From the NCBI RefSeq assembly GCF_001624705.1, contig NZ_JSEO01000004.1, positions 310,001 to 374,000 on the forward strand: 64,000 nt of DNA, given 5' to 3'. Below the pieces are notes generated by a model. It made no database searches. It had not been told where the DNA came from and saw only the letters and a list, made by a program, of their open reading frames with translations. Below are positions 23,725 through 36,342 of the stretch, in pieces. This DNA comes from Marinomonas sp. SBI8L. GTDB lineage: Bacteria; Pseudomonadota; Gammaproteobacteria; Pseudomonadales; Marinomonadaceae. Made by a program: the position numbers and the translations under genes. The stretch's first letter is position 1, and each line of letters begins with the position of its first letter.

Positions 23725-24036
23725 CTATTTTAATGAACTGTAGTAAGCCGCTAAATTAGCAATATCTGCATCGGAAAGAGGTGCTGCCATTCCCGTCATG
23801 ATTGCCGCTTGACCACCCGTTCTTTGACCTGCCTTATAGGCTTTTAATGCAGCACTTATATAGCCAGCATTTTGCCCCGCTAGATTTGGATAAGTAGGAA
23901 TCATTGCAATGCCATTTGCACCATGACATGCCGCACACACAGCCGATTTTGCTTTACCCGCTGATATATCAGCGGCGTTTACAGTAAAAGGTAAACAAGC
24001 AATCGCAACTGCAGAGATCCATAAACCTAATTTCAT
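23725..24036 (-). CDS. periplasmic class I cytochrome c (c4/c553 type)
   Basis: 103 residues with signal peptide [21 protein letters not shown] single haem site CAACHGANG is followed by [15 protein letters not shown], and a likely axial methionine in [10 protein letters not shown]. The start at 24036 has AAGGA upstream; a longer reading exists but adds a non-signal leader. It is a soluble electron carrier in the periplasm. It stands alone with its own terminator. Confidence 0.9.
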
Positions 24037-24530
24037 ACGATTTTCCTTACAAAGAGACTCAGTTAAAAAATAAATCACCCTTAAATACATATCATAAAAA
24101 CGCTAGGACAAATTTGTCTAAAAGCAGGAAAGCTTGAGTTAGGTGTTTTTATTCAGTTTTTAGTGATTTTCGCTTCGATATACATAAAACATTAACTGCT
24201 AATAAGGTGTTTTTCCAATTCATAGCATTCGTATTATGAAAAAACATCCATACTATGAACAAAGCTCCTACAACTAAAAAGTAAGAACGAACCACTTAAT
24301 CAGTCAATTTCCTCCAGCATAGAAGACCAAACAACATCTATATCACTCTATTTTCCAAGAGCACTCCCCTAAGCAGAAGCAACAAAAATTTCACATAGGT
24401 TCACCTATGCTGAGCCTCCAAGTTTTTAACTCACCTTAGACTTGGGCTATTCAGCAAGGACATGCCTAGCAGTAAACAGGGATTTTAAATCGAACACTTA
24501 ATAGTCATCTTTTAGATAAGTAAGGTTTTA
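24037..24530. other. intergenic region with one perfect inverted repeat
   Basis: About 490 bp between the divergent cytochrome c and LtaS-like genes. A perfect inverted repeat CATAGGT-TC-ACCTATG lies at 24394-24409, about 120 bp before the LtaS-like start, and may be an operator or short hairpin. No gene was found. Confidence 0.45.
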
Positions 24531-26492
24531 ATGGAATCCTCAAATACATTGCTAAGGCGGTTTTACGCCCCTCTCAAACCCTTCGCTCTTTTCACTTTCG
24601 TCGCTATGCTTATTCTTTCTCTTTGCAGGATTGGCTTAAGTATTTGGCAGGAAGCAAGAATTGAATCTTTTACCGACTGGATCACTTTGTTAGGTTTTGG
24701 AGCAAGGATAGACAGTGTAACCATTGCAATGTTTATTGGTATTCCAGCTGTAATCACCTTACTCATCTCAGGTATCCCTTGGGTAAATAGAGTCTGGGAT
24801 AAGGTTTGTCAGCTATGGCTTATGGCTGTACTTGTCTTCTTTATCTTTATGGAGGTCTCAACTCCAGCATTCATATTAGAATACAGTTTAAGACCCAACC
24901 GTCTCTTCATTGAATACCTAATTTATCCAAAAGAAGTATTTTCAATGTTATGGTCAGGCCATAAACTGACATTATTTTTAAGCTCAATTGTGACGGTTGC
25001 TGCGGTTTATTTTTGCTACAAACTGTTTTATCTAAGTAGCACACTGACAAAAGATAATCCTAAGTGGTTTGAACGCCCGATTTTTGCTGCCTTTGTCCTT
25101 GTATTAGCGGTTGCTGTTGCAAGATCCTCACTAGAGCACAGGCCAATCAACCCAAGTTTTACCTCTTTTACAAATGATCCACTAGTAAATAGCCTCACTC
25201 TTAATTCAAGTTATTCTGTGCTTTACGCAGCTAAGGGAATGAAAAATGAAGTGAGCTCTTTTGACCTTTATCCAAAAATGTCCAAGCAGGAAATTACAAA
25301 TACGATTAGACAGAGTATGGGGGTAGAGCCAACAGACTTTGTATCTGAAGAATACCCAACCCTACACAAACACCTTGCCAGTAAGCGCTATAACAAACCA
25401 AAAAACCTTGTCATCATTCTAGAAGAAAGCCTTGGTGCTCAGTTTGTAAAAAGCCTAGGAGGGCTTGACCTAGCGCCTTATTATGACGCCTTAAGTGAAG
25501 ATGGATGGGCATTTGAAAACCTTTACGCAACAGGTACTCGTTCGGTTAGAGGTATTGAAGCCGTTATAACAGGTTTTGTTCCTACACCGGCAAGAAGCGT
25601 TGTAAAACTGCCAAAATCACAGTCTCAGTTCTTTACCATTGCAAAGTTACTTAATCAAAAAGGTTTTGATACTAGCTTCATCTATGGGGGCAGTGCTCAT
25701 TTCGATAATATGAGTAGCTTTTTTATTGGTAATGGCTTTAAGCAAATTATTGAAGAAAAACATTATGAGAACCCAACTTTTAAAGGCTCTTGGGGGGTAA
25801 GTGACGAAGACTTATTTAATAAAGCCCATCAAATCTTTACGGAAAAAGCCAAGCAAAACAAGCCTTTCTTCAGCCTAGTTTTTAGCTCTTCCAATCATGA
25901 TCCTTATGAGTTTCCCGATAATAAGATAGCGCTTTATGATGAAACTAAAAACACACGCAACAATGCTGTTAAATACGCTGATTATGCCTTAGGTAAGTAC
26001 TTTGAAAAGGCCCAAACATCCAGCTACTGGGACGATACAGTTTTCCTTGTAGTGGCTGACCATGACGCTAGAGTGCATAAGGCAAATCTAGTACCTATTA
26101 ATAATTTCCACATTCCTGGGCTTATTTTGGGTAAAGATATCAAACCTAAAAAAGATTCTCGTATTGCCAGTCATATCGATTTAGCCCCCACACTCTTATC
26201 TTTAATTGGGGTTAATAGTATCCACCCTATGGTAGGTCGTGACTTCACCAAGCTTGATGATAACTACCAAGGACGAGCTATGATGCAATTTGCGAGCAAC
26301 CAAGCTTATATGAAAGGTAATGATGTGGTGGTTTTACAGCCAAATAAAGCCCCTAAAAGCTTTAAATATATTGAAGGAGAGCTTATTAAATCAGCACAAC
26401 ATAAGACAGATCTAATCAAAGAAGCAATGGCTTACCCTCTGCTTGGAAGCTGGTTTTATCAAGAAGGTAAATACGATATTTCGAATCATTAA
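24531..26492 (+). CDS. LtaS-like membrane sulfatase-fold phosphotransferase
   Basis: 653 residues. Five membrane helices occupy about the first 210 residues, then a large periplasmic alkaline-phosphatase-superfamily domain. Metal-site features are VIILEESLGAQF, the nucleophile threonine in YATGTRSVRGIEA, GGSAHFDNMSSFF and [10 protein letters not shown]. Gram-negative members of the LTA synthase family transfer phosphoglycerol or phosphoethanolamine groups to glucans or lipid A-like glycans; the acceptor here is unknown. It is a single gene with its own terminator. Confidence 0.88.
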   Translation: MESSNTLLRRFYAPLKPFALFTFVAMLILSLCRIGLSIWQEARIESFTDWITLLGFGARIDSVTIAMFIGIPAVITLLISGIPWVNRVWDKVCQLWLMAVLVFFIFMEVSTPAFILEYSLRPNRLFIEYLIYPKEVFSMLWSGHKLTLFLSSIVTVAAVYFCYKLFYLSSTLTKDNPKWFERPIFAAFVLVLAVAVARSSLEHRPINPSFTSFTNDPLVNSLTLNSSYSVLYAAKGMKNEVSSFDLYPKMSKQEITNTIRQSMGVEPTDFVSEEYPTLHKHLASKRYNKPKNLVIILEESLGAQFVKSLGGLDLAPYYDALSEDGWAFENLYATGTRSVRGIEAVITGFVPTPARSVVKLPKSQSQFFTIAKLLNQKGFDTSFIYGGSAHFDNMSSFFIGNGFKQIIEEKHYENPTFKGSWGVSDEDLFNKAHQIFTEKAKQNKPFFSLVFSSSNHDPYEFPDNKIALYDETKNTRNNAVKYADYALGKYFEKAQTSSYWDDTVFLVVADHDARVHKANLVPINNFHIPGLILGKDIKPKKDSRIASHIDLAPTLLSLIGVNSIHPMVGRDFTKLDDNYQGRAMMQFASNQAYMKGNDVVVLQPNKAPKSFKYIEGELIKSAQHKTDLIKEAMAYPLLGSWFYQEGKYDISNH

Positions 26493-26497
26493 CATAC

Positions 26498-26526
26498 AAA
26501 GGGAGCTTGGATAATAAGCTCCCTTT
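26498..26526 (+). terminator. terminator after the LtaS-like gene
   Basis: Perfect 11-bp stem AAAGGGAGCTT / AAGCTCCCTTT with a 7-nt loop and a U-rich end, just after the stop codon. It also sits at the end of the convergent barrel gene. Confidence 0.85.
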
Positions 26527-26540
26527 TAAAATTATTCCCA

Positions 26541-27065
26541 CTAATAGGGGAACGTCAGACCAATACTAATTGAACTCAACTCAAACGCACTATTATCTGG
26601 CATGGTTCGCCATTCTATAAACAATTTACTGACATCAAAAAGGTTATAATCTGCGCCTATGCCATAACTGACACCGGATGCCTGAGCCTTGGTATTGGAA
26701 GAAATATCATAGTCAGCATAGCCAAAAAGAGCATATAAACGAGCATCCTCAAAACTCAAGTAAGGCTTAAAATACAAGAGTTTATATAGGTCTACTCCAA
26801 CAGTACGATTTGACACATCTTCATTTTCAGCATCCCCAAAGCCCATTCCAAGCCTTAAAGAAATCTCTAGGGGATTAAATAGCTCGTAATCAAACATACC
26901 TTCAAACGATATAGGAGAATAAACCTCACCAGATTCATCATAATTCCAGGTAACAAATGCCCCACCTAAATAAAAAGTATCATTTACATCAGATTCAAGT
27001 ATTTCTTCATCAGCATAAAGAAAATGAGAAAAGCTAATAAAACATAAAAGAGTCAATAATCGCAT
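26541..27065 (-). CDS. small outer-membrane beta-barrel protein
   Basis: 174 residues with signal peptide MRLLTLLCFISFSHFLYA. The mature part alternates hydrophobic and polar residues (FYLGGAFVTWNYDESG, DYNLFDVSKLFIEWRTMP) and ends SSISIGLTFPY, with the terminal aromatic residue expected of a BAM substrate. It is an opacity/OmpW-size barrel of about eight strands. The role is unknown. Confidence 0.75.
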   Translation of the reverse strand: MRLLTLLCFISFSHFLYADEEILESDVNDTFYLGGAFVTWNYDESGEVYSPISFEGMFDYELFNPLEISLRLGMGFGDAENEDVSNRTVGVDLYKLLYFKPYLSFEDARLYALFGYADYDISSNTKAQASGVSYGIGADYNLFDVSKLFIEWRTMPDNSAFELSSISIGLTFPY

Positions 27066-27139
27066 ATTCCCTCCTGCATTTTCTGACCACCAATAATAAG
27101 TATATGAAACTTTAATAAAATTACTGAATTTATATAAAT

Positions 27140-27165
27140 AAAAAGCCAGCAGTTGCTGACTTTTT
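27140..27165. terminator. terminator, probably the original end of hcnABC
   Basis: Stem AAAAAG-CAGCA / TGCTG-CTTTTT with one mismatch and a GT loop; both strands are followed by T-rich DNA. It now lies on the far side of the IS from hcnC. Removing the IS would put it about 30 bp past the hcnC stop codon, so I infer it ended that operon before insertion. Confidence 0.65.
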
Positions 27166-27230
27166 ATTTAACTTGATTGTCCCGTCCTGAATAAGGTTGT
27201 CACTTTCCAATTAATCATTTGGAGAGTGTT

Positions 27231-27632
27231 ATGCAATCAACATCTAAGCGTACTCAGCGCGACTATTCACTCGCTTTTAAATTATCGATTGTCGATCAGG
27301 TAGAAAAAGGCGAATTAACTTATAAACAAGCTCAAGATAAGTACGGCATTCAAGGTTGCTCTACTGTTTTAGTTTGGCTTCGTAAGCATGGCAAGCTAGA
27401 TTGGTCTTTAGGGACTCCCCCTTTTTTTCTAAAAGGTAGTCATATGAAAGATCAAAAAACAGAACAAACACCCGAGCAACGCATTAAAGAACTCGAACAA
27501 AAACTGGCTGAAACACAATTGAAAGCTGAGTTCTTTGAGGCTGTCGTCACCGTTATGAAACGTGATTATGGTGTCAGCTTGCCAAAAAAGCAGCAAGAGA
27601 TGTTATCCAAGAAAAAAAGATCAAAGCATTAA
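27231..27632 (+). CDS. IS3-family transposase OrfA
   Basis: 133 residues from the ATG at 27231, with GGAG nearby. Helix-turn-helix region RDYSLAFKLSIVDQVEKGEL and TYKQAQDKYGIQGCSTVLVW, then a leucine-zipper-like segment (RIKELEQKLAETQLKAEFFE). OrfA binds the terminal repeats and regulates transposition. It ends at a TAA 42 bp after the slippery site that yields OrfAB. Confidence 0.92.
   Translation: MQSTSKRTQRDYSLAFKLSIVDQVEKGELTYKQAQDKYGIQGCSTVLVWLRKHGKLDWSLGTPPFFLKGSHMKDQKTEQTPEQRIKELEQKLAETQLKAEFFEAVVTVMKRDYGVSLPKKQQEMLSKKKRSKH
27584..27590 (+). promoter_or_regulatory. programmed -1 frameshift site (A-AAA-AAG)
   Basis: The heptamer AAAAAAG is phased in orfA as CCA-AAA-AAG, the classic A_AAA_AAG slippery sequence of IS3 elements. 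After a -1 slip the frame stays open (AAA-GCA-GCA-AGA...) straight into orfB, giving a fused OrfAB transposase. The nearest upstream stop in the new frame is at 27563, so the slip must occur after it. Confidence 0.85.
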
Positions 27633-27634
27633 CC

Positions 27635-28453
27635 GTGACTCAGTCATGTGTGTTTTTGAACATAAGCAGACAAGCCTATTATAAACAGTGTCGTTGTGCC
27701 TTAGAAAAGGAGCAACGCAATGAAGAGATCATTCGTTTTATTCGAACTAAGCGAATGCAACACCCCAGAATGGGTGGGCGTAAGCTTCTTTATTTTATGA
27801 AACAGAACAAAACGTTATCTAATGCGATAGGTCGAGACAAACTGTTTCAGTTAATGAGAGAAGCACGACTGCTAGTGCCATGTCGTCGGGCATATCATAA
27901 AACCACTCAAAGCAATCATCGCTTTTGGTGTCATCCCAACTTAATCAAAGCAAGTAAAGATCAGGTTGTTGTGAATAAGCCAAAGCAAGTATGGGTGGCC
28001 GATATTACCTACTTACCGGTACGAGAAGGGCAAGCCTACCTTAGTTTGATTACCGATATGTTCTCACGAAAAATAGTAGGCCATTATGTGCATAGTAGCC
28101 TTAAAACATGTGATGTTGTGATTGCCTTAAAGAAAGCAATTAAGTGCGCAGGAGATGTAAGGGGGCTTGTTCATCACTCTGATAGAGGTATCCAATACTG
28201 TTCGGCAATGTATCAAGCAATACATAATAAATATGGTATTCGTTGCTCAATGACAGATGGTTATGATTGTTATCAGAATGCGTTAGCAGAAAGAGTTAAC
28301 GGAATTTTGAAGAATGAATATTTATTAGAAAAGCCGATGAATTTACAGGAGGCGAAGAAAATGGTGAAAGAATCAATCACACTTTATAATGAAAGTAGGC
28401 CGCATTTAAGCCTAAAATACAAAACGCCCGATGAGGTACATCGAGCGTTTTAA
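27635..28453 (+). CDS. IS3-family transposase OrfB (DDE integrase domain)
   Basis: About 272 residues if counted from a GTG, but more likely made as the C-terminal part of OrfAB by frameshift at 27584. An HTH_21-like N-terminus leads into the rve core: VWVADITYLPV (first D), VHHSDRGIQYCS (second D) and NALAERVNGILKNEYL (E). It is complete, ending with HLSLKYKTPDEVHRAF, so it should be active. Confidence 0.92.
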   Translation: MTQSCVFLNISRQAYYKQCRCALEKEQRNEEIIRFIRTKRMQHPRMGGRKLLYFMKQNKTLSNAIGRDKLFQLMREARLLVPCRRAYHKTTQSNHRFWCHPNLIKASKDQVVVNKPKQVWVADITYLPVREGQAYLSLITDMFSRKIVGHYVHSSLKTCDVVIALKKAIKCAGDVRGLVHHSDRGIQYCSAMYQAIHNKYGIRCSMTDGYDCYQNALAERVNGILKNEYLLEKPMNLQEAKKMVKESITLYNESRPHLSLKYKTPDEVHRAF

Positions 28454-28505
28454 CTGAAATAAGTGTCAACCTATATCAGGACTAGTCAGATTAGCTAAAA
28501 TTAAA

Positions 28506-29780
28506 TCAAACTAATGCGTCTTCAATCATCTTCGAATCTTCACTTGTATCTTCTTTTGGTTTCAAGAAACGGGAGTATTTAAATGGCGTAATATCCATAT
28601 CTAAAGGCAAACCGCGATATAAGTCATTAATTAGCTTACCCGTAATAGCTGAAGTTAAAATACCTGTTCTAAAATGACCACAAGCATTGATATAACCTTC
28701 CACACCTTCCATTTCTCCTAAAATAGGAAACTCATCAGGTGTACCTGGCCTTAACCCAGCCCAACAGCGTTTAATATTCAGATCATTCAGCATAGGGATA
28801 CACTTCACCGCACCATTTACTAACTCTTTAAGCTCTGGCAGGGTATTAGTAGTATCAAAGCCCTTTTCTTCAGTGGTACTTCCTATCAAGACTTCACCAT
28901 TATCCTTTTGCGCAATATAGCAGTCTGTTGTAGAAACACAGCCCTTAAGAATTTTTGGCAAACGCTCAGATAGGATAATTTGGCCCTTAACTGGATAGAC
29001 AGGTAACTCAATTCCCGTTGCCATTTTACTCAATTGAGCCGCCCAGCTGCCTGCAGCATTAATTAAGGTATCACAAGCAATAAAACCAGCATCAGTTTCA
29101 ACACCAATCACCTTATTGCCACGTTTTTCGATCGAAAGGACCTCAGTTTCTAAAAAGAGCTCAACACCATTTTGACGAGCGGCTTCTAGATAAGCTTCAT
29201 TTAAACGATAAGGATTAACCTGATGGTCACATTTAAACTCTAATGCACCGATAGACTTTTTATTAATGTATGGTTCATCTTCAGCAAGTTCTTCTGCGCT
29301 TAGCCAACTCACTTGGTCTATTAACCCAGGAATATGATCTACAATAGAATCGGCATACATCTTATCGTATTCATCATACATGACATATTTCAGGCCCGTT
29401 TTTTCAAACTTAAAATCAACGCCATGTTTGTCTTTTAATTCTTGCCATAAAGCTGGGTACATAGCATTACTTTTTAACGCAAACTCAAAAAAGTAATCAG
29501 GTAAAACATGCGGCCTCATTGGCGGTAAGTCTTCACCGGTTGCGTCTGCTTGCTGCATCGTCATGCGATTAAAGAAAATAACACCACATCCTAAACCAAC
29601 AGATTCACCAATTGCCCACAAACCACCAGCAGAAGCACGAGAGGCATTACCTGGTTTTTTAAGGTCGACCAATGCAATTTTTAAGTCTTTTTCTTTACTC
29701 AAAAAATAAGCACAAGCAGCGCCAATTACACCACCACCCGCGATCACTATGTCATATTTTTTATTTGTCTTAGTACTCAT
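28506..29780 (-). CDS. hcnC: hydrogen cyanide synthase subunit HcnC-like FAD oxidase
   Basis: 424 residues. FAD-dependent oxidoreductase of the DAO family: dinucleotide motif DIVIAGGGVIGAACAYFLS at the N-terminus. Stretches I recall from Pseudomonas HcnC are present: PGNASRASAGGLWAIGESVG, DCYIAQKDNGEVLIGSTTEE, and CGHFRTGILTSAITG. HcnABC oxidises glycine to HCN and CO2 at the inner membrane. The start overlaps hcnB by 4 bp (ATGA). Related three-part amine dehydrogenases (octopine, D-hydroxyproline) are the alternative, but the match is closer to HcnC. An IS lies just past the stop codon. Confidence 0.82.
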   Translation of the reverse strand: MSTKTNKKYDIVIAGGGVIGAACAYFLSKEKDLKIALVDLKKPGNASRASAGGLWAIGESVGLGCGVIFFNRMTMQQADATGEDLPPMRPHVLPDYFFEFALKSNAMYPALWQELKDKHGVDFKFEKTGLKYVMYDEYDKMYADSIVDHIPGLIDQVSWLSAEELAEDEPYINKKSIGALEFKCDHQVNPYRLNEAYLEAARQNGVELFLETEVLSIEKRGNKVIGVETDAGFIACDTLINAAGSWAAQLSKMATGIELPVYPVKGQIILSERLPKILKGCVSTTDCYIAQKDNGEVLIGSTTEEKGFDTTNTLPELKELVNGAVKCIPMLNDLNIKRCWAGLRPGTPDEFPILGEMEGVEGYINACGHFRTGILTSAITGKLINDLYRGLPLDMDITPFKYSRFLKPKEDTSEDSKMIEDALV

Positions 29781-31174
29781 AATTGCACTCCATCAGATAA
29801 GGCAGAAAAAGGAATAGGATCAAGTGGAAAACGTGGCTTAATATGCCCGACATCTGGATTTTTTAACTCATGTCCTAATCTATCCTGACAATAGCTATTA
29901 CAGGTTTTGCCTTGGCAGTCTCCCATACCTGCTCGCGTCCTCATTTTTAAAGATGTGATATCTTTCACACCTTGTTCAATCACGTCATCAATATCCGATC
30001 GAGTGACATTCTCACAACGACACACTATGGTATTTGGTTTCAATAAAGATAAAAGACCTTCTCGACGACGTCCGATTCGATCAAAACCAGCTCTGAAACT
30101 TTTCACTTTTTGCAATAATGTAAAGTAGTCATCTGCTTTACTATTTGCTTGCTCCGATGTTACTTTTTGACGAGTTTGTGCAATAGATAAGGCAGCGATA
30201 CGCCCTTCTACCATGGCTCCTTCCCCTCCTAAAATGCCAACACTGTCCCCTGCAATATAGATATTTTCCTGACTAGATTTTTGCCAAGTATCTATCTTAG
30301 GTTTAAGACCACTAATAGGGCAAACATCATGCTCTAACTGGAACAACTGGCTGAGCTGATTACGTGATACAAATCCATAGCCCACAGCAAGGCAGTCTAG
30401 CTCTAAACTTGTTCCCGTTCCTTCAATGGGGTACCAATCATCTGTGTATTTCGCAAAATGCGCTTTTTTGAGGTTACCTTCTCCCGAAACAGATACAATC
30501 CCTTGGCCATAATGCATTGGAATGGCATTTGCCTTTAGGTAACTCAGCATGCCCATCCCTTCTAAGGCAAGAACAGGGCGATTAAGTAAAGCTCGGCTCT
30601 CCTTGGCAAAGTCACTAAACTTACCCGCTTCGTATACACCCAATACTTCAACACCTGCTTTGAATAGCTGGCAAGCGACAAGAGGCAACAAAGGCCCCGT
30701 ACCCACAACCGCCATTTTTTGCCCCGGCTTTACTAACCCTGACTTAAGCTGAAGCTGAACACCTCCGAGAAGCATGACACCCGGCATTTGCCAACCATCA
30801 AAAGGAACACTACGTTCATGGCACCCAGTAGCAATAATGAGCTCTTCATAGCTAAGTTCACTCACCTCTTCCTTATGGCGAACTAACAAACTAGATTTTC
30901 CAGCTGGCCCTAATACTCGTGTATTTAGCCTTAATTCAATAAAGGCTTGATGTTCATGGTATTGCTGTCTGATATTTGAAATTTTTTTGCGTAGCTTAGA
31001 ATCTAAATGAGGTAGTTCAATCGCTTCTCGATAAGGTCCTCGAAAAACAGCGCCACCGATTTTCGGTGCTTCATCCAATACAATAGAATGAATACCCGCT
31101 TGCGCTAATTCAACAGCAGCGGAAATACCTGCTGTGCCAGCTCCAACAATAACGACAGGTGATGTATGAGTCAT
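29777..31174 (-). CDS. hcnB: hydrogen cyanide synthase subunit HcnB-like flavoprotein
   Basis: 465 residues. N-terminal FAD motif VVIVGAGTAGISAAVELAQA, second nucleotide-binding motif MAVVGTGPLLPLVACQLFKA, and a C-terminal BFD-like [2Fe-2S] region with cysteines in CRCENVTRSD and GDCQGKTCNSYC. CHERSVPFDGWQMPGVMLLG followed by GVQLQLKSGLVKPG matches HcnB as I remember it. It passes electrons from glycine oxidation to a membrane acceptor. It abuts hcnA directly (no gap) and overlaps hcnC by 4 bp, indicating translational coupling. Confidence 0.82.
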   Translation of the reverse strand: MTHTSPVVIVGAGTAGISAAVELAQAGIHSIVLDEAPKIGGAVFRGPYREAIELPHLDSKLRKKISNIRQQYHEHQAFIELRLNTRVLGPAGKSSLLVRHKEEVSELSYEELIIATGCHERSVPFDGWQMPGVMLLGGVQLQLKSGLVKPGQKMAVVGTGPLLPLVACQLFKAGVEVLGVYEAGKFSDFAKESRALLNRPVLALEGMGMLSYLKANAIPMHYGQGIVSVSGEGNLKKAHFAKYTDDWYPIEGTGTSLELDCLAVGYGFVSRNQLSQLFQLEHDVCPISGLKPKIDTWQKSSQENIYIAGDSVGILGGEGAMVEGRIAALSIAQTRQKVTSEQANSKADDYFTLLQKVKSFRAGFDRIGRRREGLLSLLKPNTIVCRCENVTRSDIDDVIEQGVKDITSLKMRTRAGMGDCQGKTCNSYCQDRLGHELKNPDVGHIKPRFPLDPIPFSALSDGVQL

Positions 31175-31513
31175 TTAGAAGCCCTCTTCTAAACGGTTTG
31201 TTTGGGTATTAATACGCATACCTGGTTCAATCAAGGTTTGACAGGCTTTCATCTTATGCTTGCCGTTTACCTGAACATTGCAGCAATGACAGATTCCCAT
31301 ACCACAATAAGCACCAGTAATTTTTGCATGGTCATTTTGAGCTATTTCATTCTTACCTACGGCAAAAAGTACACTTAAAATATTTTCCCCAAGCACTGCA
31401 TCCACCCTCTGATCATCTATCCAAACTTGGGTAAACTGACCACTTGGCGGCACAATATCTTGCTTCCTATCAAGTTTTTTGTTGTGTTCCATTAACTCTA
31501 CATATTGATCCAT
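31175..31513 (-). CDS. hcnA: hydrogen cyanide synthase subunit HcnA-like [2Fe-2S] protein
   Basis: 112 residues, slightly longer than Pseudomonas HcnA (about 104). The cluster motif is GAYCGMGICHCCNVQVNG followed by KACQTLIEPGMRI, the plant-type pattern of the small subunit of these dehydrogenases. AAAGGA precedes the ATG at 31513. It is first gene of the operon. In Pseudomonas the promoter is controlled by ANR and quorum sensing; here I find only a half-site TTGAT at 31588-31592, not a full ANR box. Confidence 0.8.
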   Translation of the reverse strand: MDQYVELMEHNKKLDRKQDIVPPSGQFTQVWIDDQRVDAVLGENILSVLFAVGKNEIAQNDHAKITGAYCGMGICHCCNVQVNGKHKMKACQTLIEPGMRINTQTNRLEEGF

Positions 31514-32139
31514 CTCTAGTCCTTTAATTTAATATTTTTATAAATATCAGTTACTTAGAAAAATATAAAACACGATTAGTTCTATATTTGATAAATTTAG
31601 GGCGCAGTTATCCCTACATTTATTTTGAAAATGCATACTTTATTTAAGTGATTAGGTACTAAAAAGAAAAAGGAGGATAAATAACGGCCGAGCGAATTAG
31701 CCAAGCTCTAGCAAAAAACAAAAAGCCATTAATAAAAAAATAGAAGCAAACTCAAACATCACAATAAACGCAAACACAATGCACCTTATTAATTAGCCAG
31801 CCTTAGAATCCAACCGAATTATAAAAATAAACAAAAGCTCCTGTATTGCCTTTTAAGATAAGGCTCAATTTGTAGGACTCAGCAGTTCATCTCTTTAGGC
31901 TTTCAAAAAATGATTCTGTAACCCTGAACCCAACTTCAAAAACACTCATACCTAACTTGGAAATGACGATAAGCTGTGCCAGTTAATATGGCTATTACTC
32001 AAGATTACAGGCAAAAGAGATATTGATATTTCTCATACAAATAAGGCGGTGTTTTTATAAAAAGTTTTATAAAAAAATTCTGCCCTATGCATCCAAAACG
32101 CCACAGCAAACGTTTCTCTCTGGGACGACATAAATAAAA
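31514..32139. other. divergent promoter region of hcnA and the lipoprotein operon
   Basis: About 630 bp of AT-rich DNA. The hcnA side holds only a half FNR/ANR-type site. The lipoprotein side holds the candidate ECF promoter at 32088-32116. No gene was found. Confidence 0.5.
32088..32116 (+). promoter_or_regulatory. candidate ECF sigma promoter
   Basis: TGCATCC and CGTTTC separated by exactly 16 bp, 36 bp before the lipoprotein start codon. ECF sigma factors paired with RskA-type anti-sigmas can use -35 elements of the CATCC type (mycobacterial SigK: CCATCC, 16-17 bp, then a -10). It would give self-control of the operon. This is based on one site and is a proposal only. Confidence 0.4.
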
Positions 32140-32151
32140 ATGGAAAATCAT

Positions 32152-32550
32152 ATGAAAACTCTCGTTAAAACTGTTTGCGTTATTGGCCTAGCTCACTCTC
32201 TTATTGCTTGTGCTGCGAGCTCTGATTCTTACTATTCAAGTAGCAAAAGCAGCGACAGCAAAATGGAAACACACCTTACAGATGCAAATGGCATGAGTCT
32301 TTATACATTTGATAAAGACACAGCCAATACGTCAAACTGCAATGGCGCATGTGCAACCCTTTGGCCACCACTCTTGGTAAAAGAAGGAGAGGAAAAACCT
32401 GCAAGCTATACACGCATCACCCGTAATGATGGAAATTTACAATGGGCTCTCAACGGCAAGCCACTTTATACTTGGGTTAGAGATACTAAACCTGGTGATA
32501 TCACAGGCGATGGTGTTAAAGGCGTTTGGCACCTTGCAAAGAAACCTTAA
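32152..32550 (+). CDS. secreted-repeat lipoprotein (COG4315 family)
   Basis: 132 residues. Lipoprotein signal with LIAC-A, a serine/tyrosine linker, then the 'secreted repeat of unknown function' domain: HLTDANGMSLYTFDKDTANT, SNCNGACATLWPPLLV and GKPLYTWVRDTKPGDITGDG. The ATG at 32152 is preferred over 32140 since TGGAAA lies at good distance and the signal peptide then starts MKTLVKT. It leads an operon with an ECF sigma factor and anti-sigma. The function of the domain is not known. Confidence 0.85.
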   Translation: MKTLVKTVCVIGLAHSLIACAASSDSYYSSSKSSDSKMETHLTDANGMSLYTFDKDTANTSNCNGACATLWPPLLVKEGEEKPASYTRITRNDGNLQWALNGKPLYTWVRDTKPGDITGDGVKGVWHLAKKP

Positions 32551-32570
32551 AACCTTCAATGTCAGCATTA

Positions 32571-32590
32571 GCTCGGCTTTTAGGCCGAGC
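32571..32590 (+). terminator. intercistronic hairpin, lipoprotein to sigma factor
   Basis: Perfect 7-bp GC-rich stem GCTCGGC / GCCGAGC with a 6-nt loop and no U tract. It lies 5 bp before the AAGGA ribosome binding site of the sigma gene. It more likely lowers or processes downstream expression than ends it. Confidence 0.5.
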
Positions 32591-32607
32591 CTTACAAGGA
32601 AACTATT

Positions 32608-33180
32608 TTGAGTTTTGATGCCATAACGAATAAGACACAGGACAAAAGTTTTAAACATAAAGTTGAAATCTTGCTGGCACAGGTTTGTTTAAAAGACCAA
32701 ACAGCATTTGAAAGTCTTTACCAAGAGACCAGCCCAAAGCTATATGGCTTAATACTGAAGATGATTCAAGATAAAGAGATTGCTGCTGATATCTTGCAAG
32801 AAAGCTTTAATAAGATATGGCACCAAGCCTCCTCGTATCGTAGTGATTTAGGTGAAAACTGGGCTTGGGCTTGGATGTGTCAAATTACTCGAAATACAGC
32901 ACTAGATCACATAAGAAAAACAAATCGTCGCCCTGAATCTCCTCTAGAAGAAACTGATATAAACCAGATTACGGACGAAGGCATGGCAATAGCAGAACAA
33001 AGAGATCTTAATTACTGCCTAAACCAACTAAAGCAAGAGCCGAGACGAGTGATTGTATTGGCCTATGTTCATGGTTTTTCCCATTCAGAGTTAGCAGACA
33101 AGTTAAGCACCCCAATCGGCACCCTAAAGTCTTGGATAAGACGAGGACTAAAGGAGCTAGAATTATGTCTCAAAAATTAA
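32608..33180 (+). CDS. ECF-type RNA polymerase sigma factor
   Basis: 190 residues with region 2 (LYGLILKMIQDKEIAADILQ, then WAWMCQITRNTALDHIRK) and region 4 (LAYVHGFSHSELADKLSTPI, then GTLKSWIRRGLKELE). A TTG start is used: AAGGA at 32596-32600 sits 7 nt before it. The downstream RskA-type gene overlaps it by 16 bp, so the pair should be made together. It probably drives the candidate promoter at 32088. Confidence 0.9.
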   Translation: MSFDAITNKTQDKSFKHKVEILLAQVCLKDQTAFESLYQETSPKLYGLILKMIQDKEIAADILQESFNKIWHQASSYRSDLGENWAWAWMCQITRNTALDHIRKTNRRPESPLEETDINQITDEGMAIAEQRDLNYCLNQLKQEPRRVIVLAYVHGFSHSELADKLSTPIGTLKSWIRRGLKELELCLKN

Positions 33181-33941
33181 ATTTAGCCCTTCGCTATCAA
33201 AACCCTAAAGTACGCTCTCACCTTGCCAGCCAATTCGTCTTAGGCACCTTATCTCCTAAGGTAAAGCAAAGAGTTATCCGCCTAATGAAGATTGATAAGG
33301 AACTAGAGCAAGCTATTTATCAGTGGCAAAGTCGGCTAGAGCCAATTAACACCAGCATAGATGAAGTCATTCCACCAAAAAAAGTATGGACAAAACTAAG
33401 TCGCGAGCTCAATTTTACCAAACAAACGAAACCCTCTTGGTGGCAATCTCTATTCTTATGGCGAGGAGTGAGTGCTATAAGTTTCGCTCTCATGCTCAGT
33501 CTATTTATCGGTAAACTTGGATTAGAGCACACCAACACGCCACCAAGTTTAGCCTTACAAGGGCCAAGTTATTTAGCGGTTTTAACATCCACAGAGGAAT
33601 CAAATAAAACACTCCCTGAACTGATTGTTAGTGCCTATAAAAGCCCAGAAGCAGGTCAATCTGAATTGCATATTCAGTGGAATAAAAATACGGATAATCA
33701 GCAGAATTTCAAACTGGAAAGAGATCAAAACCTCACGCTTTGGACCATAGATAAAAGCACTGGAGAGCAAGTCTCTTTAGGGCCTCTTGTCAACACAAAC
33801 AACAAACAAAAATTAAGTGTTGCTCAATGGCAACTAATAAAAAACAGCAAAGAACTTTGGTTAACGAAAGGGAATAAAGAAACTGATCCAGTTCTCTTTA
33901 AAGGCGAATGTTTGCAACTGTCCAGTTGGAAAACCAGTTAA
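33165..33941 (+). CDS. RskA-type anti-sigma factor
   Basis: 258 residues from the ATG at 33165, with GGAG upstream. The N-terminal cytosolic domain (ASQFVLGTLSPKVKQRVIRL, then DKELEQAIYQWQSRLEPI, IPPKKVWTKLSREL) matches the RskA/anti-sigma-K family and lacks a ZAS zinc motif. One membrane helix (GVSAISFALMLSLFIG) is followed by a periplasmic C-terminal domain of the RskA kind. It should hold the sigma factor at the inner membrane until a periplasmic signal releases it. Confidence 0.85.
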   Translation: MSQKLNLALRYQNPKVRSHLASQFVLGTLSPKVKQRVIRLMKIDKELEQAIYQWQSRLEPINTSIDEVIPPKKVWTKLSRELNFTKQTKPSWWQSLFLWRGVSAISFALMLSLFIGKLGLEHTNTPPSLALQGPSYLAVLTSTEESNKTLPELIVSAYKSPEAGQSELHIQWNKNTDNQQNFKLERDQNLTLWTIDKSTGEQVSLGPLVNTNNKQKLSVAQWQLIKNSKELWLTKGNKETDPVLFKGECLQLSSWKTS

Positions 33942-33945
33942 CCAG

Positions 33946-33986
33946 GCATAAAAAAACGGGGCTTATTGCCCCGTTTTTTTATGCCT
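33946..33986. terminator. bidirectional terminator
   Basis: Long perfect stem GGCATAAAAAAACGGGGC / GCCCCGTTTTTTTATGCC with a TTATT loop. It has U7 in both orientations and sits between the convergent anti-sigma and cysteine desulfurase genes, ending both transcripts. Confidence 0.92.
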
Positions 33987-34011
33987 ATACTTGGTAGATA
34001 AAAGTAAGGGA

Positions 34012-35160
34012 TTAGCTCTTAAGACTGCTGATTACCTTTGTAATCGTTTCGATCGTAAAATCGATATCATCTTCCGTCGTAAAACGACCAACTGAAATAC
34101 GTAAAGAAGCATGGGCTAATTGATCTGGTAAACCTATGGCTCTTAGTACATAAGAAGGTTCCAAGCTTGCAGATGTACAAGCAGAACCAGAAGAAACAGC
34201 AATATCCCCAAGAGACATCAACAAGACTTCACCATCAACATCGGCAAAACCCACATTAAGCACCCCAGCAACTCTTTGCTCAGGGTGACCATTTAAGTGC
34301 ACACCACCTAAGTCTTTAATGCCATTCCATAACTTATCTCTAAGAGCAGTAATACGCTCTTTATCAGCTTGCATATCTTGGTTAGCCAATTCAAACGCTT
34401 CACCCATACCCACAATTTGATGGGTAGCAAGCGTACCAGATCGCATACCGCGCTCATGGCCGCCACCATGCATTTGCGCTTCAATTTTTACCTTTGGAGA
34501 GCGGCGTACATATAAAGCACCTATGCCTTTAGGACCATAAGTTTTATGGGCAGTTAAAGACATGAGATCTACCTTCATGGCATTAACGTCTATTTCAAGT
34601 TTACCTGTTGCTTGAGCGGCATCAACATGTAAATAAGTGCCGTTCGCTCGCGTTAACTCACCAATTTTAGCAATATCAGTCACTATACCGATTTCATTAT
34701 TTGCCATCAGTAAAGAAACTAAAATAGTATCTTCACGTAATGCCGCTTGTACCATTTCAGGCTGAATAACACCTTGCTCATCAGGCTTTAAATAAGTGAC
34801 TTCAAAACCTTCAAGCTCAAGCTGCTTACAAGGATCTAAAACAGCCTTATGCTCAATCATGGAGGTAATAATATGCTTACCTTTCTTTCCATATTGATGA
34901 GCAATTCCTTTTAATGCCAAATTATTTGCTTCGGTTGCACCTGAGGTCCAAACAATCTCTCTCGCATCAGCCTTGATCAAATCCGCCACCTGTTGTCTTG
35001 CATCTTCAACGGCTTCTTCTGCACGCCAGCCAAACATGTGTGAACGAGATGCAGGATTACCAAAATTGCCTTCTAAAGAAAGGCATTGCATCATTTTCTC
35101 AGCCACTCTTGGGTCAACCGGTGTAGTTGCTGAATAATCAAGATAAACAGGGGAACGCAT
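34012..35160 (-). CDS. IscS/NifS-type cysteine desulfurase
   Basis: 382 residues starting [23 protein letters not shown] lysine is in [16 protein letters not shown] and the sulfur-carrying cysteine in [14 protein letters not shown]. It lacks the IscS-specific C-terminal tail, so it is group I but not the housekeeping IscS proper. GGAG precedes the chosen ATG. It lies after sufE in a unit separated from the suf operon by a terminator, giving this genome region two desulfurases (with sufS). Confidence 0.88.
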
Positions 35161-35233
35161 TTTCTTCTCCATAAAAGTAAGTGTTAACTTACTTTAGATC
35201 ATATATTCTATAAGCTTTATTAAACTAGCAGAC

Positions 35234-35644
35234 CTAAAGTGCTGCTTTTGCCATTGCCTGAATTCTAGCGACGATAGATTTAAGACCATTACCTCTAGTC
35301 GGACTTAAGTGACGCTCAAGATCTAGCTCAGCAAAATAGGCATCAATATCAAATGCATCAATATCTGTCGCTGTTTTATTATCATAAGCAGCCATCACCA
35401 AAGCTAAAAGACCACGAACAATAATGGCATCACTATCAACAACAAATGTCATCCGTTCGCCGTCTTGACCTGGCTCAATCCAAACACTGCTTTGACAGCC
35501 TTTAACTAAGCGCAACTCAGTTTTTAGCGCTTCATCCATAGCAGGTAAAGATTTACCTAAATCTATGATGTATTTATATCTGTCTTCCCAGTCGTCGAAA
35601 AATTCTAAATCTTCAATAATTTCAGTTGTGCTTGGTAATGACAT
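35234..35644 (-). CDS. sufE: SufE-type sulfur acceptor
   Basis: 136 residues from the ATG at 35644. The sulfur-accepting cysteine is in VKGCQSSVWIEP and the C-terminal RHLSPTRGNGLKSIVARI is diagnostic. SufE takes persulfide from SufS and passes it to SufBCD. No strong ribosome binding site is seen; a TTG at 35665 would be the alternative start. It leads the two-gene unit with the cysteine desulfurase. Confidence 0.88.
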   Translation of the reverse strand: MSLPSTTEIIEDLEFFDDWEDRYKYIIDLGKSLPAMDEALKTELRLVKGCQSSVWIEPGQDGERMTFVVDSDAIIVRGLLALVMAAYDNKTATDIDAFDIDAYFAELDLERHLSPTRGNGLKSIVARIQAMAKAAL

Positions 35645-35728
35645 ATAAATAAAAATCTCTTTCAATAAGAAGGGGAATTGACCAGTTCTTTAATTGTGGC
35701 CATAAAAACTTCGGTCTAAAACAAAACA

Positions 35729-35754
35729 ACCCTAGTTGGAATATCAACTAGGGT
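35729..35754 (-). terminator. terminator after sufT
   Basis: Perfect 10-bp stem ACCCTAGTTG / CAACTAGGGT with a 6-nt loop, followed on the minus strand by TGTTTTGTTTT. It separates sufT from the sufE unit. Confidence 0.7.
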
Positions 35755-35811
35755 CGCTATTGTATGAGAAACACTGCTGAGGGTGAACCTCTTGAATCAG
35801 ATTAAAGTCAG

Positions 35812-36342
35812 TTAAAAGAAAAGCCCTGCTTCTAACTGCGCTTCTTCACTCATCATTTCACGAGACCAAGGTGGATCAAACACCAGCTCGACCTTAACTG
35901 TTTCTACATTAGGAACCATAGCAACGCGATAATCCACATCACTGACTAACACAGGGCCCATACCACAACCAGGTGCAGTCAATGTCATATCAATACGAAC
36001 ACTCTTACTATCTTGGTCTACTTCAACTTTATAAATGAGCCCAAGAGAGACTAAGCTAATCGGTATTTCTGGATCAAAAATACTGTCTAATGCCTGCCAA
36101 ACTTGCTCTTCAACTATTTCACCTGTGCCAGAATCAGTAAATTCTAGTACTTCAGGCTCTTGTCCTATGGCATCAGCATCTGTGCCATCAATACGCAACA
36201 TATTACCTTGAAAGGTAACTGTGTAATTCCCACCTAAACTTTGATTTATGGTCAGAAACTGGCCTTCTTCAATAATAGTAGGCTCGCCACTAGGCACTCT
36301 TCGTGCTGGACATTGCCTTTGGGTTACGACCATTTTTTGCAT
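35812..36342 (-). CDS. sufT: SufT family Fe-S assembly protein
   Basis: 176 residues, the typical full-length form. It carries a DUF59/MIP18 domain with FDPEIPISLVSLGLIYKV and the reactive cysteine in TAPGCGMGPVL; FDPPWSREMMSEEAQLE closes the family pattern. SufT assists maturation of Fe-S proteins. It is last in the iscR-led transcript, before a terminator. Confidence 0.92.
   Translation of the reverse strand: MQKMVVTQRQCPARRVPSGEPTIIEEGQFLTINQSLGGNYTVTFQGNMLRIDGTDADAIGQEPEVLEFTDSGTGEIVEEQVWQALDSIFDPEIPISLVSLGLIYKVEVDQDSKSVRIDMTLTAPGCGMGPVLVSDVDYRVAMVPNVETVKVELVFDPPWSREMMSEEAQLEAGLFF

Follow-up and report, generated by a model that had tools for sequence, protein, structure and literature searches.

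Hydrogen cyanide (HCN) synthase converts glycine to HCN and CO2 in two two-electron steps and passes the electrons to the respiratory chain. The enzyme was termed membrane bound in a study that measured cyanide from Chromobacterium sp. Panama, and the same source gives C. violaceum and C. vaccinii as producers of HCN and C. subtsugae as yielding none above background on King's Medium B (PMC5974309). In C. violaceum cultures, lower HcnA and HcnC were linked to lower cyanide (PMC8062528). For marine bacteria, an hcnABC-type operon has already been published for Vibrio coralliilyticus (PMC7649382), 14 HCN clusters are reported within Pseudoalteromonas gene cluster families (PMC13385065), one HCN cluster is given for P. 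elyakovii (PMC12452183), and the three HCN synthase subunits are described as commoner in host-associated non-pigmented Pseudoalteromonas genomes (PMC13245728). In the antiSMASH hydrogen cyanide region given for Pseudoalteromonas viridis, the core genes carry the four Pfam domains Fer2_4, Pyr_redox_2, Fer2_BFD and DAO (PMC11015633). A search of openly licensed papers found no title or abstract on cyanide in Marinomonas.

Organization and conserved residues of the operon

Three intact and tightly packed open reading frames in the order hcnABC occupy positions 28506–31513 on the minus strand of the window, the whole 64,000-nucleotide stretch of Marinomonas DNA analysed here, which belongs to a genome of 5.19 Mb. 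The hcnA-like gene (31175–31513) encodes a [2Fe-2S] subunit of 112 aa with a Fer2_4 domain and directly abuts the hcnB-like gene (29777–31174), whose 465 aa product combines a Pyr_redox_2 flavoprotein with a BFD [2Fe-2S] domain (Fer2_BFD). The latter gene overlaps by 4 bases, as in one operon, with the hcnC-like gene (28506–29780) for a DAO flavoprotein of 424 aa resembling glycine oxidase. All of these Pfam matches exceeded the gathering score, and the [2Fe-2S] subunit, the BFD flavoprotein and the DAO flavoprotein follow one another in the HcnABC order; this three-gene arrangement is real and chance is excluded. The reading frames and domains confirm a preliminary description of three abutting or overlapping genes in hcnABC order, and the sequence stretches that it cited were all found, AGGLWAIGESVG and DCYIAQKDNGEVLIGSTTEE in HcnC and CHERSVPFDGWQMPGVMLLG in HcnB.

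Judged from sequence, we assign the operon as hcnABC, coding for hydrogen cyanide synthase, with a probability of about 0.9. In HcnC, an FAD enzyme similar to glycine oxidase, two conserved arginines would bind the glycine, from which two electron pairs would be removed to take it through the imine to HCN and CO2, and the electrons would travel from the flavin and [2Fe-2S] cluster of HcnB to the [2Fe-2S] cluster of HcnA and on to the respiratory chain at the membrane. Substrate, product, membrane association and electron route are here presumed by analogy with the family, and by the same analogy the cyanide may serve as a volatile in competition or defence.

The residues expected of such an enzyme were present in all three proteins. 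Likely cluster cysteines of HcnA were C70, C75, C78 and C91, together with C77, which is typical of the clade, and those of the BFD [2Fe-2S] domain in HcnB were C385, C387, C420 and C425. In HcnC, the glycine-oxidase arginines are R344 and R371, whose alignment columns we take to be those of R302 and R329 in Bacillus subtilis glycine oxidase. Both were found throughout the clade (94/94 members), in comparison to 6/10 (R344) and 1/10 (R371) of the outgroup rows. The closest solved structures to HcnC were six glycine oxidase chains (E 1e-51 to 8e-47). None of the three proteins scored above the cut-off of an NCBIfam equivalog. HcnC scored 248 bits against the ThiO glycine oxidase family (TIGR02352), narrowly under the cut-off of 250.8, and ThiO of thiamine synthesis was rejected as an assignment, a better ThiO candidate (257 bits) being located at C12 of the same genome. 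Sarcosine oxidase was likewise rejected, as SoxA and SoxB scores were far under cut-off.

Near-invariant columns, defined as alike in at least 35 of 36 Pseudomonadaceae and Chromobacterium-group sequences (25 and 11, respectively), numbered 42 for HcnA, 227 for HcnB and 256 for HcnC. The window retained 29/42, 161/227 and 210/256 of them, in comparison to 17–23, 86–103 and 66–89 in outgroup rows so divergent that some columns may be misaligned. This outgroup comprised 10 rows (9 for HcnA), with HcnC partners chosen by best score and adjacency to HcnB not always given. The residue counts exclude L073, which lies at a contig end, L087 and L088, whose reading frames are split, L107, which lacks a partner, and L122 and L123, whose identities equal those of L088 and L093.

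The window deviated from the near-invariant columns at 46/256 positions in HcnC, 66/227 in HcnB and 13/42 in HcnA, which can be interpreted as an HCN-clade member whose activity has shifted to simple oxidation of glycine or small amines, or which is silent, with little or no cyanide formed. Retention of all three genes in a genome of C. subtsugae (L081), the reported non-producer, is in agreement with such an outcome, albeit the strain may differ from that of PMC5974309, and because of this species gene presence is not taken as proof of cyanide production. Against drift or silence, five HcnC residues aligned to glycine-oxidase positions (R344, R371, Y288, D286 and T303) were invariant across all 94 clade members, and comparison of the window with Marinomonas sp. 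MED121 gave dN/dS values of 0.025 for hcnB and 0.021 for hcnC, rough estimates at dS near 2 that indicate purifying selection on both genes. Values were calculated for these two genes only, since dS for hcnA was beyond estimation. We regard a drifted or silent operon as very improbable and retain HCN synthase as the preferred assignment.

Phylogenetic position and relatives

Relatives were searched for in one genome per species (84,980 species) with aligned HcnB sequences from the window, Salinivibrio and Vibrio as query. This search found 303 HcnB relatives, of which the best 80, corresponding to 76 distinct loci, were retained. Among these best 80 of 303, 68 of the 76 loci had HcnB identities of 40–93% to the window and the other eight of 29–37%. 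The 68 loci were from Marinomonas, Shewanella, Thalassomonas, Pseudoalteromonas, Vibrio, Photobacterium, Salinivibrio, Moritella, Pseudovibrio, Chromobacterium and Paraburkholderia, with another Neisseriaceae and single uncultured or unplaced Gammaproteobacteria, Lysobacterales, Flavobacteriaceae, Aquimarina and Acidobacteria records. HcnA- and HcnC-type neighbours occurred at all 68, some split or at contig ends. Pseudomonas was absent from the 76 loci taken from the best 80 of 303 relatives, perhaps owing to the scan patterns. A family that is presumably Pseudomonadaceae, assigned by a 16S probe that matched 1/370 genomes of the class, was searched as well, and 27 of its 298 genomes had an HcnB at 48–50% identity to the window. 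All 25 loci fetched from it, taken as mostly Pseudomonas, resembled the window in possessing the three genes, with HcnC 61–65% identical. Of 370 genomes sampled evenly across the class, only four, the window's genome included, matched Chromobacterium HcnB (E < 1e-70), and so the operon is uncommon. A plasmid search returned 521 matching records; among the 20 listed, five Salinivibrio or Vibrio rows were at 52–53% identity and the other 15 at 31–33%.

The main tree was built from joined HcnB and HcnC sequences in 56 rows, 50 of them HCN-type and six outgroup, one of the latter from the window's own genome (32% HcnB and 24% HcnC identity). Of the 25 fetched Pseudomonadaceae loci 12 were included, and the other loci were represented by a manual selection. 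The 50 HCN-type rows, which take in six Chromobacterium or Neisseriaceae and 12 Pseudomonadaceae rows, separated from the outgroup with support of 100/100, the outgroup consisting of uncharacterised rows on very long branches that drew a long-branch warning from the program. The same split was recovered in a quick tree that used 10 outgroup rows and no Pseudomonadaceae; L093, L095 and L097 were placed in this tree alone. Four subclades were each supported at 100/100, with no resolution of the branching order among them in the main tree. The window and MED121 clustered with four Shewanella loci and one Thalassomonas locus, the closest relatives after MED121 (HcnB 74–76%, HcnC 83–85% identical). 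A second subclade held eight Pseudoalteromonas rows, a third comprised 13 rows from Vibrionaceae, Pseudovibrio, Moritella and one further genome, and the fourth united Chromobacterium, Pseudomonadaceae and Paraburkholderia in 19 rows. Chromobacterium HCN synthase is like that of the window in gene order and domains (HcnC 63–65%, HcnB 48–51% identical) but falls in this other subclade. The three supported subclades other than that of Pseudomonadaceae and Chromobacterium are formed by the marine operons.

The window operon hence groups with those of known cyanogenic genera and apart from other three-subunit flavoprotein sets, which supports its earlier identification as hcnABC; grouping with amine or opine dehydrogenases, the outcome that the preliminary description had named as contrary evidence, did not appear against this uncharacterised outgroup. 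An alternative explanation is a heterotrimeric D-hydroxyproline, L-proline or opine dehydrogenase that would feed electrons from imported amines into respiration and release no cyanide. Its three-subunit architecture is identical, OpnDH, D-HypDH and HCN synthase being described as related and of the same subunit assembly (PMC4575208), and HcnB matches the SoxA family, though far under cut-off. Nevertheless, the window lies inside the HCN clade of a tree from which characterised opine and hydroxyproline enzymes were left out, and none of the ten window genes scanned around hcnABC matched a transporter family. Furthermore, the same genome has a separate catabolic-looking set on C67 (L165, 6403–9272), with 32% HcnB and 24% HcnC identity to the window operon, which adjoins TRAP transporter genes and a LysR-type regulator and probably encodes a catabolic dehydrogenase of amines or amino acids. 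There is, in our estimation, only a slight chance that the window operon encodes such a dehydrogenase in place of HCN synthase.

The proposed extension of cyanogenesis to new marine groups holds for Marinomonas, which joins the likely marine cyanide producers, and does not hold more widely, as hcnABC-type operons are carried by several other marine genera (Pseudoalteromonas, Vibrio, Photobacterium, Salinivibrio, Moritella and Pseudovibrio). The window operon is an ordinary, though well-supported, representative of an established enzyme family that is rare in Marinomonas, and its novelty is modest. If cultures make cyanide, this would bear on bacterial competition or host interaction.

HCN-clade sets were also observed outside Proteobacteria, in an uncultured Flavobacteriaceae, an uncultured Aquimarina and an Acidobacteria genome (L089, L094 and L097), at 40–43% (HcnB) and 57–61% (HcnC) identity to the window.

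Carriage within Marinomonas and bd-type oxidases

HcnC was matched at E 1e-60 or better in two of 49 genomes of the genus, the window's genome (G000) and a second (G425; 96% identity) that may be the MED121 strain, given that HcnB and HcnC of both show equal identity values relative to the window. The MED121 operon (L036) is located at the same site, with HcnA, HcnB and HcnC 89%, 93% and 96% identical to those of the window, which differs from it in the C-terminal tail of HcnC. Carriage in 2/49 genomes and kinship with Shewanella and Thalassomonas, the two grounds for favouring lateral gain, suggest transfer of hcnABC into Marinomonas. Base composition (G+C 41.0% for hcnABC, 39.6% for the window) gave no hint of recent import. 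A neighbouring Lipoprotein_15 gene was matched (E 1e-20 or better) in only 12/49 genomes of the genus.

The window's genome possesses one bd-type oxidase subunit I, a short form of 469 aa (C67:248181–249587) adjoining its partner subunit. Its length points to the cyanide-insensitive type (CIO), and an oxidase of this kind could sustain respiration under cyanide. Similar short proteins (at least 74% identity, one split copy counted) were found in 44/49 genomes of the genus, and the short oxidase is therefore not specific to hcn carriers. A longer CydA-type protein was absent in only three of the 49 genomes, both hcn carriers and the non-carrier G023, and possession of the short form as sole bd oxidase in both carriers may represent one event because the two are closely related. 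A search for AOX gave zero matches in the window's genome and likewise in control genomes, so that absence of AOX is not implied.

A broader interpretation, which we put forward tentatively and consider rather doubtful, is that hcnABC cyanogenesis is a scattered trait of several marine lineages, mobile between bacteria and extending beyond Proteobacteria, and that in the lineage of the Marinomonas carriers only the short CIO-like type of bd oxidase has remained, a reduction that would have pre-adapted the cell to its own cyanide. Within the genus, comparing the two carriers with the 47 genomes that gave no match would be a tractable way to ask how a cyanogen must protect itself.

Upstream region and flanking elements

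Control of the hcn promoter by ANR/FNR is a Pseudomonas feature. The 626 bases upstream of hcnA on the minus strand (31514–32139), which should hold the promoter, contained no ANR/FNR-like palindrome (TTGAT-N4-ATCAA, at most one mismatch). Across 89 hcnA upstream regions, with L086, L088, L089, L093, L094, L095, L097 and L120 left out, sites with at most one mismatch within 400 bases were found in 1/25 Pseudomonadaceae, 1/12 Chromobacterium-group, 15/26 Pseudoalteromonas, 3/19 Vibrionaceae, Pseudovibrio and Moritella, 2/5 Shewanella and Thalassomonas and 0/2 Marinomonas regions. The motif scan says nothing on the window, as the positive control largely fails (24/25 Pseudomonadaceae regions without a site). 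Allowing two mismatches within 300 bases, the respective counts were 4/25, 8/12, 26/26, 13/19 and 5/5, against 8 to 41% of shuffles, and both Marinomonas regions had a site in comparison to 33% of shuffles. Long common stretches in the upstream alignment were chiefly between the window and MED121. Two side observations concern the palindrome itself: the one-mismatch form in the 15/26 Pseudoalteromonas regions (for example L043, L058 and L068) was mostly TTAAT-N4-ATCAA, with shuffles at about 4%, and the whole window held 13 TTGAT-N4-ATCAA sites with at most one mismatch, several of them intragenic, compared with 4.5 expected and a maximum of 11 in 100 shuffles.

An Rfam scan of 24000–36000 gave zero matches. 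The flanks of the MED121 operon are like those of the window, with Lipoprotein_15, ECF sigma and SUF-type genes upstream and outer-membrane protein and cytochrome c genes downstream. MED121 differs in lacking an IS3-family-like element, which in the window lies beside hcnC on the plus strand at 27180–28486 (edges approximate) and includes two open reading frames, 27219–27632 and 27635–28453, the second with rve domains. Its terminal inverted repeats are imperfect, with 19 of 25 bases matching in a scripted comparison, and were not listed by a general repeat search. The element stops approximately 20 bases past the hcnC stop codon, leaving hcnC intact, and is a neighbour outside the operon. Also lacking in MED121 is a sulfatase-domain gene (24531–26492), which in the window is flanked by the outer-membrane-protein and cytochrome c genes on the downstream side of the operon.
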